Shown here piece after piece: positions 34,345-64,000 of a stretch of 64,000 nucleotides of DNA. Below the pieces are notes generated by a model, which did no database searches, was not told the origin of the DNA, and was given only the letters and a program-made list of their open reading frames with translations. The translations under genes and the position numbers were made by a program. Origin of the DNA: Candidatus Blochmannia vicinus. Its GTDB lineage: Bacteria; Pseudomonadota; Gammaproteobacteria; Enterobacterales; Enterobacteriaceae. The stretch's first letter is position 1, and the number at the start of each line of letters is the position of its first letter. The stretch is taken from contig NZ_CP097763.1 in NCBI RefSeq assembly GCF_023586525.1, forward strand, positions 1-64,000, read 5' to 3'.

Positions 34345-34779
34345 TTGGAATCACCATTAGGATCAGATTTAGCGCGTCTTGTGAGAATATGGCGCGCTTT
34401 AATTGATCATCGTTTAAAACCTTTAAAACTTACACAAACGCATTGGATTACATTACATAATATTTGTCAACTACCTCCAGAACAATCTCAAATCCAATTA
34501 GCAAAAGCCATAGGGATCGAACAACCATCTTTAGTAAGAACGCTAGACCAACTTGAAGAAAAAGCGTTAATTATCAGACACACTTGTGTTAATGATCGAC
34601 GAGCTAAACGAATTAAATTAACTGACAAGGCTCAACCTGTTATTATCGAAGTAAATCAGGTTATTTCTACTACTAGAAACGAAATTTTTAGTGGAATCAA
34701 TCATGAAGAAATAATTTTTCTAAATAAAATTATTTCTAAATTAGAAAAAAATATCATAAACTTACATAATAAAAATTAA
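34345..34779 (+). CDS. slyA: SlyA, MarR-family transcriptional regulator
   Basis: 144 aa from a TTG start with AAAAGGA eight bases upstream. No ATG precedes it in frame. [59 protein letters not shown] and [11 protein letters not shown] are nearly identical to E. coli SlyA, including the winged helix-turn-helix recognition helix and the Arg-rich wing. SlyA counteracts H-NS silencing and controls envelope and virulence genes in enterics. Strong conservation in such a reduced genome implies it still acts. Confidence 0.95.
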
Positions 34780-39611: not shown

Positions 39612-41606
39612 ATGTTAATTTTTATCATACTAGGAGTAATGTTACAAGCACTCATATATAATGAAATTGCTTGGTGTGACATACTCAAAAACCGTACTAA
39701 ATTTAATATTAACGACAATATATTTCAAGTTGATTCATATCAACAAAAAATAAAACTATATACGTACGATGATCACAAACATAACACTCTGAACATTTAT
39801 CCCTATACAATTCATAAACCAAATGTTCGTAGCCATTATAACTATAAATCTCCGTTTTCTTCTGCCTACAGATCTAAAATACAATTACAAAATGATTCAG
39901 TAAACATATTTCATTCATTTCGAACACAACATAATATATATCAAGAAAATCTATCCTTTATGCAACTAGGAGTACATAATCTTTTATCAAAACAAATTTT
40001 AAATTTTGGAGGAGGAAAAAGACACCTATATAATAACAAACATGCTATTGGATGCAATACCTTATATCACTGTCCTATTTCTAATCAAAGCAACCAACCA
40101 TGCTCAATTAATTTCGGTATAGAATATTGGCTGAATAATACATTTTTAATGCTAAGTAATTACTATAATTTAGACAATATTTTTACTTCTAAAAAATCAT
40201 TGCAACAATATGATATAAAAAATCCAAACAGTGGTTATCAAATGCATATTCAATTTAAATTTCCACATTTTTTAGAATTTACTGGGAAAATAAAATTAGA
40301 ACGACTTCTTTATGACAAAAAATATGAAAAAATTTTTAATACAAAAAACAATGACTATTGTTTATCACTAAATTTAAATTATAAACCCATTCCCATATTA
40401 GGTTTTAATGTAAATAATATTTTTATAAACAAAAAATATTATAATACCATTTGTCAGATATTAATTGACTACCAATTTGGAATTCCTATTTCAGAACAAA
40501 TACAATACACAAATACAAACAATACGTCCCTATTAAAATATCTTGATACTATAATACAACCATTTATACCTACTGTAATTCAACACAATAATTGCATGTT
40601 TCTTAACAATCATAGTAACGAAAAATCATTCCCACATACTCAACAAATAACAGGTTATCCCGGAGAAATCAAAATAATTGAAACTAACAATCATAACGAT
40701 AAATCTGAGCAATGGAATTTTAATGCGTTACAAAATCAAGGAGGAAATGCTATTCTAATAACAAATAATACCTATGCGCTTTATTTACCCAACCATCCTA
40801 TCACTAAAGAAGATGACATCTTTATTTCATATATTACTAATGCAACTCAAAATAATGATCAGAAACAAAAAAAACAAAATATACATATTTTAGTAAAAAA
40901 TTTTTCACAAAAAAAACTATCTAGTACACAACAAAATAACATCTCTGCTGCTATTACTGTTAATAATGACTCCGGAATCAATGTTACAGAAAATACAATC
41001 AAATATTTTCCAACGAACAAGGAAGATCATCACAATTTCAAAAATGAAACATCAATTCCTCATCTCATTATAGGAAATGATGCTATAACAGAAAAAACAA
41101 AAAATATTGAAGAAATACAAGATGATTTTGTATTTCCAGCCCCTCCTCCCCCTCCAATTCCTGTTCTGTTTTCAGAAAAACAATCAACAACAACAGTAAT
41201 GGCATCGTCCACGCCAAATGCTACGTTGTTATCATCTTCAGATTACTCAACAACAATTCCTTTTAACAAAGAATACCAAACTTCTTCTTCAAGAAGCAAC
41301 GATGAATATCAAATAACACATGATAATACTTTTCCAGAATATTCTGATATTGAATTTAATGCAAATGATGATTTATCACAGCGCTTATCAATGCACAAAA
41401 AATATAAATTTTCTTTAATAGGTACTACAGAACATATGAACAAACTCGAAAATGTCATATCGGAACGCAAAAAAACTACACTCCCTAGTAGCGATATGGC
41501 ACAAATACTTTTAAAATTAAATCTCAGTAACCAATCTTCCTCACCATCTATTAGTGAGGATTGTGATACAGACGACAGTAATGATAGCTTTAATTCTAAA
41601 AACTAA
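39612..41606 (+). CDS. Inverse autotransporter (intimin/invasin-like) with reduced passenger
   Basis: 664 aa. A hydrophobic N-terminus (1-20) serves as signal. Residues ~75-300 align with the intimin/YeeJ beta-barrel: LSFMQLGVHNLLSKQILNFG (cf. LFSQLGVRN...LNIGAG), FGIEYWLNNTFLML, NSGYQMHIQFKFPHFLEFTG, LERLLYD, LSLNLNYKPIPILGFNVNNI and LIDYQFGIPISEQI. Residues ~343-410 resemble the first passenger Ig-like unit (QITGYPGEIKII, QWNFNALQNQGGNAILITNN, YALYLPNHPI). The usual periplasmic LysM domain is missing. The remaining ~230 residues are Asn/Ser/Thr-rich with FPAPPPPPIP at 508-517 and an acidic end. Family assignment is from alignment by memory; function unknown, expected at the cell surface. 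It is single, flanked by housekeeping genes, and has the same base composition as its neighbours. Confidence 0.82.
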   Translation: MLIFIILGVMLQALIYNEIAWCDILKNRTKFNINDNIFQVDSYQQKIKLYTYDDHKHNTLNIYPYTIHKPNVRSHYNYKSPFSSAYRSKIQLQNDSVNIFHSFRTQHNIYQENLSFMQLGVHNLLSKQILNFGGGKRHLYNNKHAIGCNTLYHCPISNQSNQPCSINFGIEYWLNNTFLMLSNYYNLDNIFTSKKSLQQYDIKNPNSGYQMHIQFKFPHFLEFTGKIKLERLLYDKKYEKIFNTKNNDYCLSLNLNYKPIPILGFNVNNIFINKKYYNTICQILIDYQFGIPISEQIQYTNTNNTSLLKYLDTIIQPFIPTVIQHNNCMFLNNHSNEKSFPHTQQITGYPGEIKIIETNNHNDKSEQWNFNALQNQGGNAILITNNTYALYLPNHPITKEDDIFISYITNATQNNDQKQKKQNIHILVKNFSQKKLSSTQQNNISAAITVNNDSGINVTENTIKYFPTNKEDHHNFKNETSIPHLIIGNDAITEKTKNIEEIQDDFVFPAPPPPPIPVLFSEKQSTTTVMASSTPNATLLSSSDYSTTIPFNKEYQTSSSRSNDEYQITHDNTFPEYSDIEFNANDDLSQRLSMHKKYKFSLIGTTEHMNKLENVISERKKTTLPSSDMAQILLKLNLSNQSSSPSISEDCDTDDSNDSFNSKN

Positions 41607-58965: not shown

Positions 58966-59243
58966 CTTAAAGAAATAATAATTAATAAAAAAAAATAATA
59001 ATACAACTACTTATTAAAGTATAAATAAAATAAATCATATTATTTTTATTGTTTATCATTAAAATACTGTCACTATAACAAACAATCATAGTAATAATTC
59101 CATTATCAAAGAAGATTACATTATAAAAATAACTATTTTTATAATTTTTAAAATATCAAATCTCAATCGACGCATACTACTTGATTAGCTGATATCTTAT
59201 GATAAAATTTTTAGATTATCATTTAATTCTATAGAAGAACCTA

Positions 59244-59462
59244 ATGACAAAAGAAGATAATTTCGAAATGCATGGTGTCGTATTAGATACTTTACCTAAT
59301 ACAATGTTTCGCGTAGAACTAGAAAACGGGCATACTATCATAGCACATATTTCTGGAAAAATAAGAAAAAATTACATTCGAATCCTAACAGGAGACAAAG
59401 TAACTGTTGAACTTACACCATATGATTTAAGTAAAGGAAGAATTATTTTTCGTAGCAGATAA
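59244..59462 (+). CDS. infA: Translation initiation factor IF-1
   Basis: 72 aa, same length as E. coli IF-1 and nearly identical: [40 protein letters not shown] and [15 protein letters not shown] single OB fold that occupies the 30S A site during initiation. It is convergent with the copper-receptor gene, with a perfect palindrome between them. Confidence 0.97.
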
Positions 59463-59485
59463 TAACATTTAAAAATTTAATGCCT

Positions 59486-59541
59486 TTACATGCGTATTTA
59501 TAAAATCATGCTAGCATGATTTTATAAATACGCATGTAAAT
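59486..59541. terminator. Perfect 56-bp palindrome between convergent infA and the receptor gene
   Basis: Arms 59486-59513 and 59514-59541 are exact reverse complements over 28 bp, with no spacer (centre GCTAGC). It starts 23 bp after infA and ends 65 bp before the receptor stop. The likely role is a bidirectional terminator. Perfect symmetry without a loop is unusual. Confidence 0.75.
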
Positions 59542-59606
59542 TTTAAACATAGACTAATTTTAAAAACTTTTTAAATATAAATCAAATTTCTTCTTGCCTT
59601 TTTTAT

Positions 59607-61772
59607 TTATAGCACTATCCCCAATTTAATCCACCAAATGCGTCCTGGTTCATACATTAACGTTCCAGTAGGATATCCAAGGCGTTTATGCATATATAAA
59701 TTAAAATATTCCCTATAATTATGATTCAACAAATTATCCACACCAATACTAAATTTATAAAATTGAGAGTTAGTCCATGCTAAATGTGTAGATAATATTC
59801 CAAACCCTGAAGTATTATAATTCTCACGCGCATGCAATAACGTATTCTTATAAGTAACAGGGGCTGGAGAAATAAATAAATTATTAGATTGTGGAAATGC
59901 AAATCTCCACAAAGCAGTGATGCTGTAACATCCTTTTATCCATTGACATATTACTTTACCTTCCAATGGAGGAATTTTAGGTAAAGAACAATTATTATCT
60001 GCATTTATACCCCAAGACCATGACATATTACTTTCAGCCCGCCAATAATCATTAAATTGATAATTTAATCCTATTTCAGTTCCACATATTTTAGCATTAA
60101 TATTTTCTGTATGATTAATACCACCATTATATGGTATGTAATCATTGTAATAACCACATAAAATAAAATCTCTAATATATCCAGCATAAGACGATATCCA
60201 TCCATTTGTTTGTAGATGTTGAAAATTAGCTCCTATATCTATCTGAACGACCTTCTCAGGTTTTAGTTCTAAAACATTTTCTATACTGCTATTAATATTC
60301 TGACTAAATCTATTAGAAAATAACTCCCAATAATCAGGAAAACGAAAACTTGTTCCAACACCTACATAATATGATAACAATGGATTAACATTGTCCTCAT
60401 AGCGTAAAAATCCCGCAGGATATATAATACTATACCGTTTATATTTAGAAAAATTATTAAAATTAACTACACTGTATTCCAGTCGCGTACCTCCAATAAA
60501 TCTTTTACTTGATAATGAATTCGCAATTAATTCAGTAAATATACCAATATCTTGGGAAACAATATCTTTCTCCCAATTAAAACAAGATTGTACGTGTTCT
60601 CTGTGTTTGTTAACTTGCACATCTGCTCCGCTATAACATTTGATGTTATCCCATTGTGTTGTCGCAACACCTCGCGCACCCCATATTAATCGATCAACAT
60701 TGTTTTCAATATCATTATTAAATCCACAACAATTTTTACAAGATAATCCTGTAACATACGGTAAAGTATCAGCCATAATATGGCTTACATAATTATGCCA
60801 AGCTTGCAACTCAATTTTATCTAATTTTTTAATTATGTCTGTAGTTTCTACTTTTATTCCATAACTTTCTCTAGCAAAACATAATCCATCCATAGATCTA
60901 ACAGCATAATTTGCATTACCGTTACCTTGCCCTAAACTAATCTCTAAATGTATGTCTTCTCTTAAATTTAAAGACAAAATGGCATCAGCGTTCCATTTAT
61001 ACCATGCAGAATGTACTCTATGTTTATGGCCATCATAATAATCATCTGACTGAGAAAGATTACCTATTAATCTAAGATATCCATATTTACTTCCTATAAT
61101 ACTGTCTATATTTCTATCTACTTTATTATTTGCTCCAATCATTAAATTACTGCGCAATTGAACTTTTGATTTATCAAAACAAGGATTATATCGTTCAAAT
61201 TGTAATGTAGCTCCAGATGCTACAGGACCCCATAACACTGTCTGCGGGCCTTTAATAACATTTAAAATATCAAAAGTTTCTGGAGAAATATAAGCGCTAA
61301 TAGGATCCATATGAGAAAAACAAGCACCAAGTATTTCTCCGTTATCCATTAAAATACGTATCCGAGATCCAAACATCCCACGAAAAACTGGTTCGTTATT
61401 AACTCCTCCGTTACGAATAGCAGTAAACCCTGAAATATTTTTCAAATAATCAGCTGCATCAGTTACATATAATGATTGCAATGATCTTGTAGGAGAAGCA
61501 GTAAAAACCAATGGAGAATTTTTTAATGAAATGATAGTCATTATATCATCACGTATTTTTACCTGATGATATAATGTTGGCGATCTTTGTATATCATCAG
61601 ATACTGACATTAAGGTGTCTTTAGATCTATTTCCAATAGACATATCATTCAAATTAGCTTGAGAGTTATTAAGAGTAATCATGATTAAATCAAAACATAT
61701 CAAAAATAACATTTTATAAATTAATGTTCTAAAACTATATAAAAATGTGTCATACATCATATATACGCTCAT
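59607..61772 (-). CDS. TonB-dependent outer-membrane receptor, OprC/NosA copper-receptor type
   Basis: 721 aa. Hydrophobic leader at ~17-34 (start may be the ATG at codon 5, 6 or 21). A plug domain follows: DAADYLKNISGFTAIRNGG, EPVFRGMFGSRIRILMDNGE and AYISPETFDILNVIKGPQTV, then LWGPVASGATLQFER. The order and wording are those of the OprC TonB-copper receptor family. The four copper ligands of Pseudomonas OprC (C143, M147, H323, M325, from memory) have counterparts C151-FSH-M155 and H331-I-M333 at identical spacing. A ~500-residue beta-barrel ends in ...YEPGRIWWIKLGIVL, an outer-membrane C-terminus (aromatic/hydrophobic). The TonB box is not certain. It is divergent from a membrane regulator. 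Confidence 0.85.
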   Translation of the reverse strand: MSVYMMYDTFLYSFRTLIYKMLFLICFDLIMITLNNSQANLNDMSIGNRSKDTLMSVSDDIQRSPTLYHQVKIRDDIMTIISLKNSPLVFTASPTRSLQSLYVTDAADYLKNISGFTAIRNGGVNNEPVFRGMFGSRIRILMDNGEILGACFSHMDPISAYISPETFDILNVIKGPQTVLWGPVASGATLQFERYNPCFDKSKVQLRSNLMIGANNKVDRNIDSIIGSKYGYLRLIGNLSQSDDYYDGHKHRVHSAWYKWNADAILSLNLREDIHLEISLGQGNGNANYAVRSMDGLCFARESYGIKVETTDIIKKLDKIELQAWHNYVSHIMADTLPYVTGLSCKNCCGFNNDIENNVDRLIWGARGVATTQWDNIKCYSGADVQVNKHREHVQSCFNWEKDIVSQDIGIFTELIANSLSSKRFIGGTRLEYSVVNFNNFSKYKRYSIIYPAGFLRYEDNVNPLLSYYVGVGTSFRFPDYWELFSNRFSQNINSSIENVLELKPEKVVQIDIGANFQHLQTNGWISSYAGYIRDFILCGYYNDYIPYNGGINHTENINAKICGTEIGLNYQFNDYWRAESNMSWSWGINADNNCSLPKIPPLEGKVICQWIKGCYSITALWRFAFPQSNNLFISPAPVTYKNTLLHARENYNTSGFGILSTHLAWTNSQFYKFSIGVDNLLNHNYREYFNLYMHKRLGYPTGTLMYEPGRIWWIKLGIVL

Positions 61773-62254
61773 AGTTATTAAATGATTCTTAAAAAGACTA
61801 ATATAACAACTAAAATATGCGCGTTAAAACTTAACATTATTCAGTAAAACACCAAGTACATCAATAATACAAAATAATGTCAACTCAAACACATATCTAT
61901 AATCATATCAGTATATTATACTAAATCACTTCAACTATCTTAATACCTAAAAAAAAGAATATTATTTATGAATATAATCATTTAAATTAAAAAATACTAT
62001 TCTAATAGAAATAAAACCTAAATATTTTCTGTGTTACAATCGGTTAAAATTTTTATATATACATATTTGTTTAAATTAATATCAAAATCAATTAAATAAC
62101 TTCTATGTCATCGACATGTATCAAATATAACAATATCACATATATATATTATTATAATAATGTAATATACATTTACTAATGTACTAGATTTTTAGAGTAT
62201 ATTATTATATTATTTAAAAATTAAATTATGAAAATGCCAAAAAATATGATCACG
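61773..62254. other. Left part of divergent spacer between receptor and regulator genes
   Basis: AT-rich with no gene. It must carry the receptor promoter. No classical CueR or CusR box was recognised by eye. The inverted repeat described next bounds it on the right. Confidence 0.4.
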
Positions 62255-62275
62255 TTACTAACATTATGTTAGTAA
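62255..62275. promoter_or_regulatory. 21-bp inverted repeat, candidate operator
   Basis: TTACTAAC-attat-GTTAGTAA: 8-bp perfect arms with a 5-bp centre, 143 bp before the regulator ATG and 482 bp from the receptor start. Symmetry and spacing suit a dimeric winged-helix regulator, although OmpR-type domains more often bind direct repeats. It could also be a hairpin. No similar repeat was noticed elsewhere in the window. Confidence 0.4.
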
Positions 62276-62418
62276 TAGAATTTTAATAATAAAAATACTG
62301 TTTTATAATCTTTATATATATTGATTAAAGAATAAAAAAATGCTATTATTTTAGATTATATGTAAACAGCTGGCATAAACGTTGCTTAATCCATATACAG
62401 TTCATATGGAGTAACTAA

Positions 62419-63054
62419 ATGAAATATGTCATTCAATCAACTATCATATTCGATACTGCAGAATATATTTTAACATCATTAACTGAACCTAACACATCGG
62501 TGAAGTTATCTAATTCTGCAGGACGAGTATTAGAAGAACTTATTAAACAACGAAATATTGATCCCAACACTCCAGTCACTCGGGACCATTTATTTTCAAT
62601 TGTATGGCGAGTTTATGGGCTCGAGCCATCTAACGGAAACTTAAACCAACAAATTAGTTTAATACGAAAAACTATAACCTCTTTTGGGTTAGATCCTTCA
62701 TCTATTATAACTATACCTAAACGAGGTTTAAAACTAAACAACCAGTTAACTATAGAAAAAATAAATGAAGAGACCCCGTGTTTATCTTCTACTCTACATA
62801 AAACCATAGATAAAAACAACAACTTACCATCTTCCGCTTTACTAAATATAAAAACTCATATAAAATATATGACTACTCTCACAACAATAGTCTCAATCTT
62901 ATTCAGTATTGGGTTTTTTTATTTATACACCAAAAAAGACCATATAAAATTATATTGTTGCAAAGAAATAAACTCATGCAATGTTTGTACTTTTCATTCA
63001 GAACCAGGATTAGATTGTAGCGGCTGTGCTATACAATGTACCGAAGTGACATAA
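62419..63054 (+). CDS. ToxR/CadC-like membrane-anchored transcriptional regulator with Cys-rich periplasmic tail
   Basis: 211 aa. N-terminal OmpR/PhoB-type winged helix (about 5-108): VTRDHLFSIVWRVYG, NLNQQISLIRKTITSFG and IITIPKRGLKL, the pattern of ToxR/CadC cytoplasmic domains. A linker (110-147) leads to one membrane helix (about 151-170), then a ~40-residue tail predicted periplasmic, with seven cysteines: C180, C181, C187, C190, C200, C203, C207, including CNVC and CSGC. GGAG lies eight bases before ATG; a small inverted repeat (62391-62409) could mask it. No phosphorylation domain is present. The sensed signal is unknown; redox or metal is an inference from the cysteines and the divergent copper-type receptor. 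Confidence 0.8.
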   Translation: MKYVIQSTIIFDTAEYILTSLTEPNTSVKLSNSAGRVLEELIKQRNIDPNTPVTRDHLFSIVWRVYGLEPSNGNLNQQISLIRKTITSFGLDPSSIITIPKRGLKLNNQLTIEKINEETPCLSSTLHKTIDKNNNLPSSALLNIKTHIKYMTTLTTIVSILFSIGFFYLYTKKDHIKLYCCKEINSCNVCTFHSEPGLDCSGCAIQCTEVT

Positions 63055-63890
63055 TATAATCAGATATAAGATAATTTATAAAAATTTTACTTTTCATTAT
63101 CATGATCTAAAATTATAAGCAGCTCATCACTATATGAATATATATCTAAACCCCACAACATGTTTTAGTAACTATCTTTAACTTTATAACAATTCTACAC
63201 TAATATCTAACCAATATTAACCTAAAAATTAGTAAATATATTTATACATATTCTTTTAATAAAACAACTATTTAATAAAATTTCTATTTATACGTATCAT
63301 AAAAATCAATCAAATTAAATCTAGTCCTCCCTTTTTATTAAAATTTAAAACATCAACATATGATTAATAATCATTCAATTACAACAAAAACATTATTTTT
63401 ATGAAAGATTTTATTTCAAATATTTAATTGAAATTAACTCATCACAAAAGATATATCATAAAATTACAATCTTTATATTTAATATAGATTGCAATTATAT
63501 TAATATTAATTTCTTACCATTAACAATAATATAAATCCCTATATGAATATAATTAGACCATAAATAAAATTAACATATATACATACGATATTAAAATATC
63601 TATCAAAAAATAAATATACTTGTATATAATCTTATTTATCTAACTTAGACACAATTTATTTACATTCATAACAATTTTTAATTAAATAACATATTTAATC
63701 ATTGTTACATTTGTAATACTATTTTATTCTGTAATTTTAAACTAATATATTCCTAACGATCAAACATCATTTAAATTTTTTATTACTTAATATAATAAAT
63801 AATCGCAGAAAAAATATATCAATATATATCTCCAAGTTTATAAAAAATTAATTTAAAAAATAAAATATTAATCTAAAATTAGATCTATAA
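63055..63890. other. Non-coding spacer between the regulator and mltC
   Basis: 836 bp of A/T-dominated sequence on both strands with no frame, tRNA or strong hairpin. The flanking genes converge. In E. coli mltC has nupG and a tRNA-Phe downstream; neither was found here. Confidence 0.5.
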
Positions 63891-64000
63891 TTAATCCTGA
63901 TTAACATAAATAGAATTAACTTTAGATAAATAACGCTGTGCCTGCGCAGATGGATGATGGGATTGTATATATTGGTAAAATTGATCTGGACTAAGCTTAT
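63891..64000 (-). CDS. mltC: MltC, membrane-bound lytic murein transglycosylase, C-terminal end (5' part outside window)
   Basis: The last 35 codons of a gene entering from the right edge. The complement reads KLSPDQFYQYIQSHHPSAQA, then QRYLSKVNSIYVNQD and a TAA. This matches the E. coli MltC terminus ([27 protein letters not shown]...) in length and key residues HPSA-RYL-KVN. MltC cleaves glycan strands to 1,6-anhydroMurNAc ends and is an outer-membrane lipoprotein. The call rests on this short stretch alone. Confidence 0.8.
   Translation of the reverse strand, partial: KLSPDQFYQYIQSHHPSAQAQRYLSKVNSIYVNQD

Follow-up and report, generated by a model that had tools for sequence, protein, structure and literature searches.

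Introduction

Obligate symbionts are known to lose most of their regulators. Within the first 64,000 bases of the 778,501-bp genome of Candidatus Blochmannia vicinus, an endosymbiont of ants (contig NZ_CP097763.1; this stretch is referred to below as the window), a gene for a membrane-bound transcription regulator (62419–63054, + strand) is retained next to a divergent gene for a TonB-dependent receptor, and the regulator ends in a short periplasmic tail crowded with cysteines. The locus raises the question of where this tail came from, whether its cysteines are anything more than drift, and what the regulator may still control.

A ToxR/YqeI-type regulator with a seven-cysteine tail

The gene begins with ATG, encodes 211 aa and is the ortholog of B. 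floridanus yqeI (Bfl390). The protein consists of a winged helix, a variable linker, a single transmembrane helix and the tail. The winged-helix DNA-binding domain (residues 1–110; 62419–62748, + strand) was recognized from Pfam and from a PDB profile match; its omega is given below. Trans_reg_C of Pfam matched residues 26–104 with an E-value of 5e-5 and 23.7 bits, slightly below the cut-off of 26.2. A profile of six full-length orthologs matched ToxR (8b4b, E = 4e-11) and CadC (5ju7, E = 6e-6) in the PDB, and the window protein scored 19.1 bits with the NCBIfam CadC equivalog, whose cut-off is 400. The transmembrane segment (residues ~147–171; 62857–62931, + strand) lies within a long helix of the predicted model (139–173), and a segment at 149–171 was given for the B. 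floridanus protein (PMC1360075). Beyond it, the tail (residues 172–211; 62932–63051, + strand) carries cysteines at positions 180, 181, 187, 190, 200, 203 and 207, including the motifs CNVC (187–190) and CSGC (200–203). The binomial probability of at least seven cysteines in 40 residues is ~2e-6 for a background of 1.5% Cys and 2e-4 for one of 3%. A preliminary description of this DNA had reported a ToxR/CadC-like protein with a tail of ~40 residues holding seven cysteines and both motifs, and the ORF and the motifs were indeed seen.

Searched against its own genome, the protein matched only itself. An ortholog was found in all 14 Blochmannia genomes, which together with the omega values rules out a chance or artefactual ORF. 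Elsewhere in the window, a MarR/SlyA-type regulator (34345–34779) is a further transcription factor, and a 664-aa product of 39612–41606, between fumC- and ubiX-like genes, looks like what may be an eroded barrel of the inverse-autotransporter kind, followed by a low-complexity tail.

The tail as the remainder of a longer periplasmic domain

When 295 sampled genomes of the family were searched with the full-length-ortholog profile (E ≤ 1e-40), 15 gave matches: three Blochmannia and 12 others, one of them the distant G290 (E = 8e-43). Relatives identified by name are Sodalis sp. dw_96, two Wigglesworthia, a MAG and a record labelled Martelella alba. Six aligned orthologs outside Blochmannia have 98–102 residues with four cysteines after the membrane segment; the 14 Blochmannia genomes have 35–60 residues with four to seven. 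The predicted model of the Sodalis ortholog (mean pLDDT 69, pTM 0.41, hairpin block pLDDT 80–86) has strands at 180–185 and 188–192, a helix at 198–212 and further strands at 223–228, 245–252 and 258–267. Aligned with the full-length orthologs, the Blochmannia tail retains the first beta-hairpin and little else; in the window protein this remnant runs from C180 to C190 (62956–62988, + strand). All three C-terminal ancestral cysteines are gone from the Blochmannia tail, except that in G001 a cysteine of an extension aligned into one of the lost columns. The short thiol-rich tail of the preliminary description is thus real, but it is what is left of a domain of ~100 residues rather than a purpose-built short sensor.

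The same profile aligned with E. coli YqeI over 232 positions (1–232; hhalign 98%, E = 3.6e-14). The periplasmic domain alone was below significance against YqeI and, compared with the PDB by sequence, gave nothing up to E = 5. A FidL_like gene follows the regulator directly in G017, Sodalis dw_96 and G149 (by Pfam) and in G063, G141, G144, G177 and G271 (by BLASTP); BLASTP found no FidL match adjoining the regulator of G290. Among 24 genomes tested, PF15941 was present in four (G017, G063, G141 and G149); it was detected in none of the 14 Blochmannia genomes, in none of three Wigglesworthia-type genomes and not in G092. GrvA/FidL, YqeI/YqeJ and MarT/FidL are described as co-component systems of the VtrA/VtrC superfamily, whose transcription factors, except VtrA, are reported to have a folded periplasmic domain with a disulfide formed through a near-C-terminal cysteine, and whose adjacent partner is a lipocalin of the FidL/VtrC kind (PMC9214523). 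Given the YqeI alignment and the FidL_like neighbours, the ancestor was in all likelihood a co-component cassette, as that account defines it, resembling GrvA/FidL or YqeI/YqeJ.

In the large-genome relatives, FidL is followed by a gene for a dCache-GGDEF protein (L064:11025–12716 and L067:9412–10983), identified by Pfam in G017 and Sodalis dw_96 and by BLASTP in six more; the gene following FidL is in pieces in G063 and G141. This neighbour suggests a link between the ancestral cassette and c-di-GMP signalling. Genome G092 (1.2 Mb) encodes a full-length regulator in the order trxB-receptor-regulator, as here, with a decayed FidL trace downstream (HMM E = 7.6e-5), and represents an intermediate stage in the reduction of the cassette.

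Profiles of FidL and of the missing domain half were run against all six reading frames of the 850 bp downstream of the regulator. A frameshifted or leftover longer domain was rejected, since the best Blochmannia tail score was 4.1 bits against 4.3 in block-shuffled sequence, and so was a FidL remnant in Blochmannia (best 3.6, E = 0.3, against 2.6 in shuffled sequence), a trace being found only in G092. The ortholog profile match overran the stop codon by 84 bases, through several stops, in G000 and by ~40 in G006; this could reflect a weak relic or simply an alignment that was extended too far. As a whole, sequence comparison supports the homology, the truncation and the loss of FidL well.

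Gain, retention and selection of the tail cysteines

C187 is the only ancestral cysteine of the tail. C181 (F or M in the relatives) and C190 (Y in 6/6 relatives) were gained and, like C187, are present in all 14 Blochmannia genomes. The other positions are less general, with C180 and C200 in 12 genomes each, C207 in 10 and C203 in nine, and C200, C203 and C207 (63016–63039, + strand) appear from the alignment to be later or less stable gains; a 111-column winged-helix tree was poorly resolved within Blochmannia and was not used to order them. All seven positions are cysteine in nine of the 14 genomes, and no Blochmannia tail has fewer than four. Conservation of the seven, which had been raised as a check on the preliminary description, therefore extends across the genus for C181, C187 and C190 but not for the other four.

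In clade A (nine genomes), all seven cysteine positions of the tail are invariant, compared with 18 of the 33 others; across Blochmannia the corresponding numbers are 3/7 and 3/33. Nei-Gojobori omega values in clade A were 0.119 for the winged helix, 0.372 for the linker, 0.176 for the membrane helix and 0.127 for the tail, the last thus showing purifying selection on the tail.

If the two-residue turn was read correctly, C181 and C190 should stand opposite one another on the two strands of the hairpin. This cross-strand pairing rests on the strand limits of the ortholog model, because the tail of the window protein was itself modelled weakly (block pLDDT ~45–56, with low-confidence strands E177–181/E189–191).

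Cysteine drift in exported proteins

BamA, TamA and a porin were sought as controls in eight of the fourteen Blochmannia genomes. BamA has 4–15 cysteines in the eight and 2 in G017; TamA has 2–13 in seven, some of its frames being short (323–610 aa), and 1 in G017; the porin has 1–7 in the eight and 0–1 outside. Other symbionts are also cysteine-rich, with 8 (G073) and 6 (G138) in BamA and 7 in TamA (G185 and G138). Cysteines have drifted into exported proteins in this genus and in some other symbionts (G073, G138, G185). The extra cysteines of the Blochmannia outer-membrane proteins mostly stand at positions that are not common between species.

Fixed columns were compared in six of the eight genomes, those without a receptor (G008 and G012) being left out. 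New-cysteine columns fixed in all six numbered 0/32 in BamA, 0/27 in TamA and 0/12 in the porin (0/71 in total), against 3/50 in the receptor and 3/11 in the regulator. Against the controls, Fisher's test gave P = 0.008 (pair), 0.002 (regulator alone) and 0.07 (receptor alone); these values are indicative only, because the Blochmannia rows are related and the test overstates their independence. With all eight genomes included, fixed new cysteines numbered 0 in BamA and 0 in the porin, against 2/11 in the regulator. General drift as the whole explanation of the tail cysteines was rejected: it is partly true, yet no control column was fixed in the six genomes.

An OprC-type receptor with gained cysteines

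The receptor (59607–61772, − strand; 721 aa) is of the OprC/NosA type. It scored 456 bits against TIGR01778 (TonB-dependent copper receptor), below the cut-off of 472.45, which the G006 receptor exceeded with 493 bits, and it matched OprC in the PDB with E = 7e-131. The copper ligands of the CxxxM motif (C151/M155, OprC C143/M147; 61308–61322, − strand) and of the HxM motif (H331/M333, OprC H323/M325; 60774–60782, − strand) are conserved in 17/17 aligned receptors, an alignment from which those of G073 (5 Cys) and G185 (6 Cys) were left out. The G009 receptor has one TGA inside the matched range, its frame still being 717 aa.

Three cysteines, C298 (60879–60881, − strand) and C348-C349 (60726–60731, − strand), were gained in 12/12 Blochmannia receptors and occur in 0/5 aligned receptors outside the genus. 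Counted from H323 in the OprC alignment, C298 lies four residues past the equivalent of Met286, and C348-C349 fall within the loop that holds Met339, Met341 and Met343 in OprC. These methionines of OprC bind Ag(I) (PMC8610252). The Met286 equivalent is retained in all 12 Blochmannia receptors. The Met339/341/343 stretch is absent from them and also from G017 and G092, and methionines stand there in G030 and G149; the loss thus preceded the new cysteines. A move from methionine to cysteine ligands may be proposed from these positions, and a disulfide between the two receptor loops is just as possible.

Where infA and the receptor gene converge, a strong palindrome (59476–59547) separates their ends; it is probably a bidirectional terminator. 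A search of 59000–64000 for RNA elements with Rfam gave nothing at the gathering score; four weak matches at this palindrome are chance matches to the hairpin.

The divergent pair and its intergenic block

As had been noted beforehand, the regulator is divergent from the OprC-type receptor, with 646 bp between the starts (61773–62418). The pair is adjacent and divergent in all 12 Blochmannia genomes that have both genes, at a spacing of 347–646 bp. Receptors (E ≤ 1e-60) were sought in a sample of equal size, drawn as for the regulator search. Seven regulator-bearing genomes outside the genus had one, and in five the genes are adjacent (G017, G063, G092, G141 and G149); they lie on separate contigs in G177 and G271. 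The arrangement therefore predates the genus. The adjacency expected at the outset accordingly held in Blochmannia and in most of these relatives, although two of the adjacent pairs (G063 and G141) have broken receptors and G177 and G271 keep the genes apart. Regulator identity to G017 is 76–99% among G063, G141 and G092 and 44% in G149, where a DUF2946 gene lies between receptor and regulator.

A conserved 38-bp block (62177–62214), a candidate promoter/operator of the receptor, was found by matrix scan in all 12 receptor-bearing Blochmannia genomes and in neither of the two without a receptor. The G001 block, which has a two-base gap, did not enter the matrix. Leave-group-out scores were 23–30 bits, against 8.1 for the next-best site in the window, 5.4–14.2 in six window shuffles, and 9.4 (G008) and 9.0 (G012) at the receptor-less loci. 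Neither the rest of the 64-kb window nor the cyo loci of six genomes yielded a second copy that outscored the shuffles. A sigma-70-like site directed toward the receptor (62232–62204, − strand) overlaps the block; such sites were no more frequent than in shuffles.

Regulator without receptor, and the copper and redox context

Two Blochmannia genomes, G008 (B. turneri) and G012 (B. obliquus), have the regulator but no receptor. Three Wigglesworthia-type genomes with a regulator were not among the receptor matches listed, and no receptor was present in the regulator flanks fetched from them. In these genomes the regulator must therefore have another use, and because it is kept there the receptor cannot be its sole reason to persist. 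The sensor-plus-uptake module first proposed as possible for this locus is not supported as a dedicated one, the regulator persisting alone in G008, G012 and apparently the three Wigglesworthia-type genomes.

A COX1-family oxidase subunit was found in all 14 Blochmannia genomes, whereas a search for exporters of the E1-E2 ATPase family gave no match in any of the 14; TonB is present in the B. vicinus genome. DsbA was found in 13 of the 14. Genome G010 gave no DsbA-family match, despite five tail cysteines and a receptor with 19, which is awkward for an obligatory DsbA-made disulfide and mildly favours free or metal-bound thiols there, or another oxidant.

Discussion

We consider the regulator to be a reduced co-component regulator, an anatomy and history that, including the selection of new cysteines, the alignments support well. 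The ancestor was most likely a membrane-tethered winged-helix factor whose periplasmic domain had ~100 residues and whose gene adjoined that of a FidL-like protein. The ancestral Blochmannia then lost FidL and trimmed the domain to the first beta-hairpin. The truncation removed three of the four ancestral cysteines, and new ones arose around the one that stayed. With C181 and C190 predicted to face each other on two strands, the stub may work by thiol chemistry, through a cross-strand or inter-subunit disulfide that would determine, from the other side of the membrane, how the DNA-binding domain dimerizes, the signal possibly being periplasmic redox or Cu(I). The regulator may then control the neighbouring OprC-type receptor through 62177–62214, plus other targets. 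Our preferred reading is that a thiol switch or staple within a single protein took the place of the lost sensor. That a thiol-acting stub of such a reduced regulator controls the receptor from the 38-bp block, among other targets, we regard as having an even chance of being right: the thiol function, the signal, the binding site and the target are what we infer, and copper sensing by the regulator is unproven.

A more specialized arrangement, in which the tail thiolates bind Cu(I) and adjust receptor transcription while the receptor has itself gained thiolates near its copper site, is possible but clearly less probable. On this account, uptake would have to be controlled, given the copper need of the heme-copper oxidase and the lack of a detectable P-type copper exporter; the distribution of oxidase and E1-E2 ATPase across the 14 genomes and the TonB of the B. 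vicinus genome agree with it, as do the invariant CxxxM and HxM ligands and the three cysteines fixed in the OprC methionine loops. The 38-bp block follows receptor presence, and so does C180 (12/12 receptor-bearing genomes against 0/2), but the distribution of C180 and of the receptor is confounded with phylogeny. The two receptor-less Blochmannia genomes keep the regulator with C181, C187 and C190, the absence of the methionine stretch from G017 and G092 precludes a simple Met/Cys swap, no copy of the block outscored the shuffles in the six cyo loci, and exported proteins in general have been gaining cysteines by drift.

It is rather unlikely that the cysteines only stabilize or dimerize a vestigial tail against proteolysis, the regulator being constitutively active and sensing nothing. 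The constant presence of at least four cysteines despite the loss of three ancestral ones, and the replacement of F/M and Y by C181 and C190 on facing strands, would fit such a role, and titles cited in PMC9214523 tie the cysteines of ToxR and TcpP to proteolysis; the retention of C203 and C207 in all nine clade-A genomes and the absent DsbA match in G010 would be left unexplained.

A bolder proposal, which we think unlikely, is that a two-protein co-component sensor, of a kind proposed to sense lipids, was rebuilt as a one-protein copper(I)/thiol sensor whose controlled receptor gained cysteines by its copper site. Partner and domain would have been lost and thiolate ligands gained on the stub, and the receptor cysteines would have been gained after the lineage had lost part of its methionine track. 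The lack of the methionine stretch in G017 and G092 as well lowers our estimate slightly.

That the tail is a decaying relic with cysteines acquired by drift or hitch-hiking is most improbable, for although the truncation and FidL loss are plainly erosive and cysteine gains are scattered through Blochmannia BamA, TamA and porin, the omega of the tail is near that of the DNA-binding domain, none of the 71 control columns was fixed, and the core cysteines stand in all 14 genomes of a symbiosis dated to ~40 million years (PMC4389277).

The retained regulator has lost its sensor and not its selection: cysteines arose in the truncated lineage and were then kept. Should these cysteines be functional, the locus would let one follow how a signalling protein exchanged its input chemistry as the genome eroded. 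The stages are still alive, as the full cassette in large-genome relatives, the cassette with decayed FidL in G092, the regulator alone in Wigglesworthia, and the truncated form with four to seven cysteines in Blochmannia. Whether ant symbionts regulate their uptake of copper can also be tested concretely on this gene pair.

Comparison with known systems

The ortholog Bfl390 (yqeI) of B. floridanus was annotated in 2006 with a CadC-type winged helix and a transmembrane segment, and a role in transcription was proposed (PMC1360075). These two elements were therefore already described, and the part of that account dealing with Bfl390 makes no mention of the cysteines, the truncation, FidL or the linkage to the receptor. 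Among the matches listed by an open-access literature search, we recognized no paper describing the cysteine tail or the gene pair. The preliminary description had known of no system of this form, which calls for some restriction: the kind of ancestor is described in PMC9214523, the present regulator being a reduced derivative of it, and the B. floridanus ortholog has its 2006 annotation.

The receptor resembles OprC/NosA as presented in PMC8610252 in its overall match and in the retained CxxxM-HxM ligands, and differs in lacking the Met339/341/343 stretch and in having gained Cys298, Cys348 and Cys349. ToxR and CadC are like the regulator in the DNA-binding domain, as the ortholog profile indicates (8b4b and 5ju7); the regulator differs from them in having no long sensor domain, no FidL-like partner that could be found, and seven cysteines in its tail. 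The closest likeness is to GrvA/FidL, YqeI/YqeJ and MarT/FidL, with which the regulator shares the winged helix, the linker, the single transmembrane helix and a periplasmic end, and whose FidL_like neighbour recurs beside the regulator in its large-genome relatives. Blochmannia departs from these systems in being without FidL, most of the periplasmic domain and the C-terminal cysteines, and in carrying new cysteines instead.
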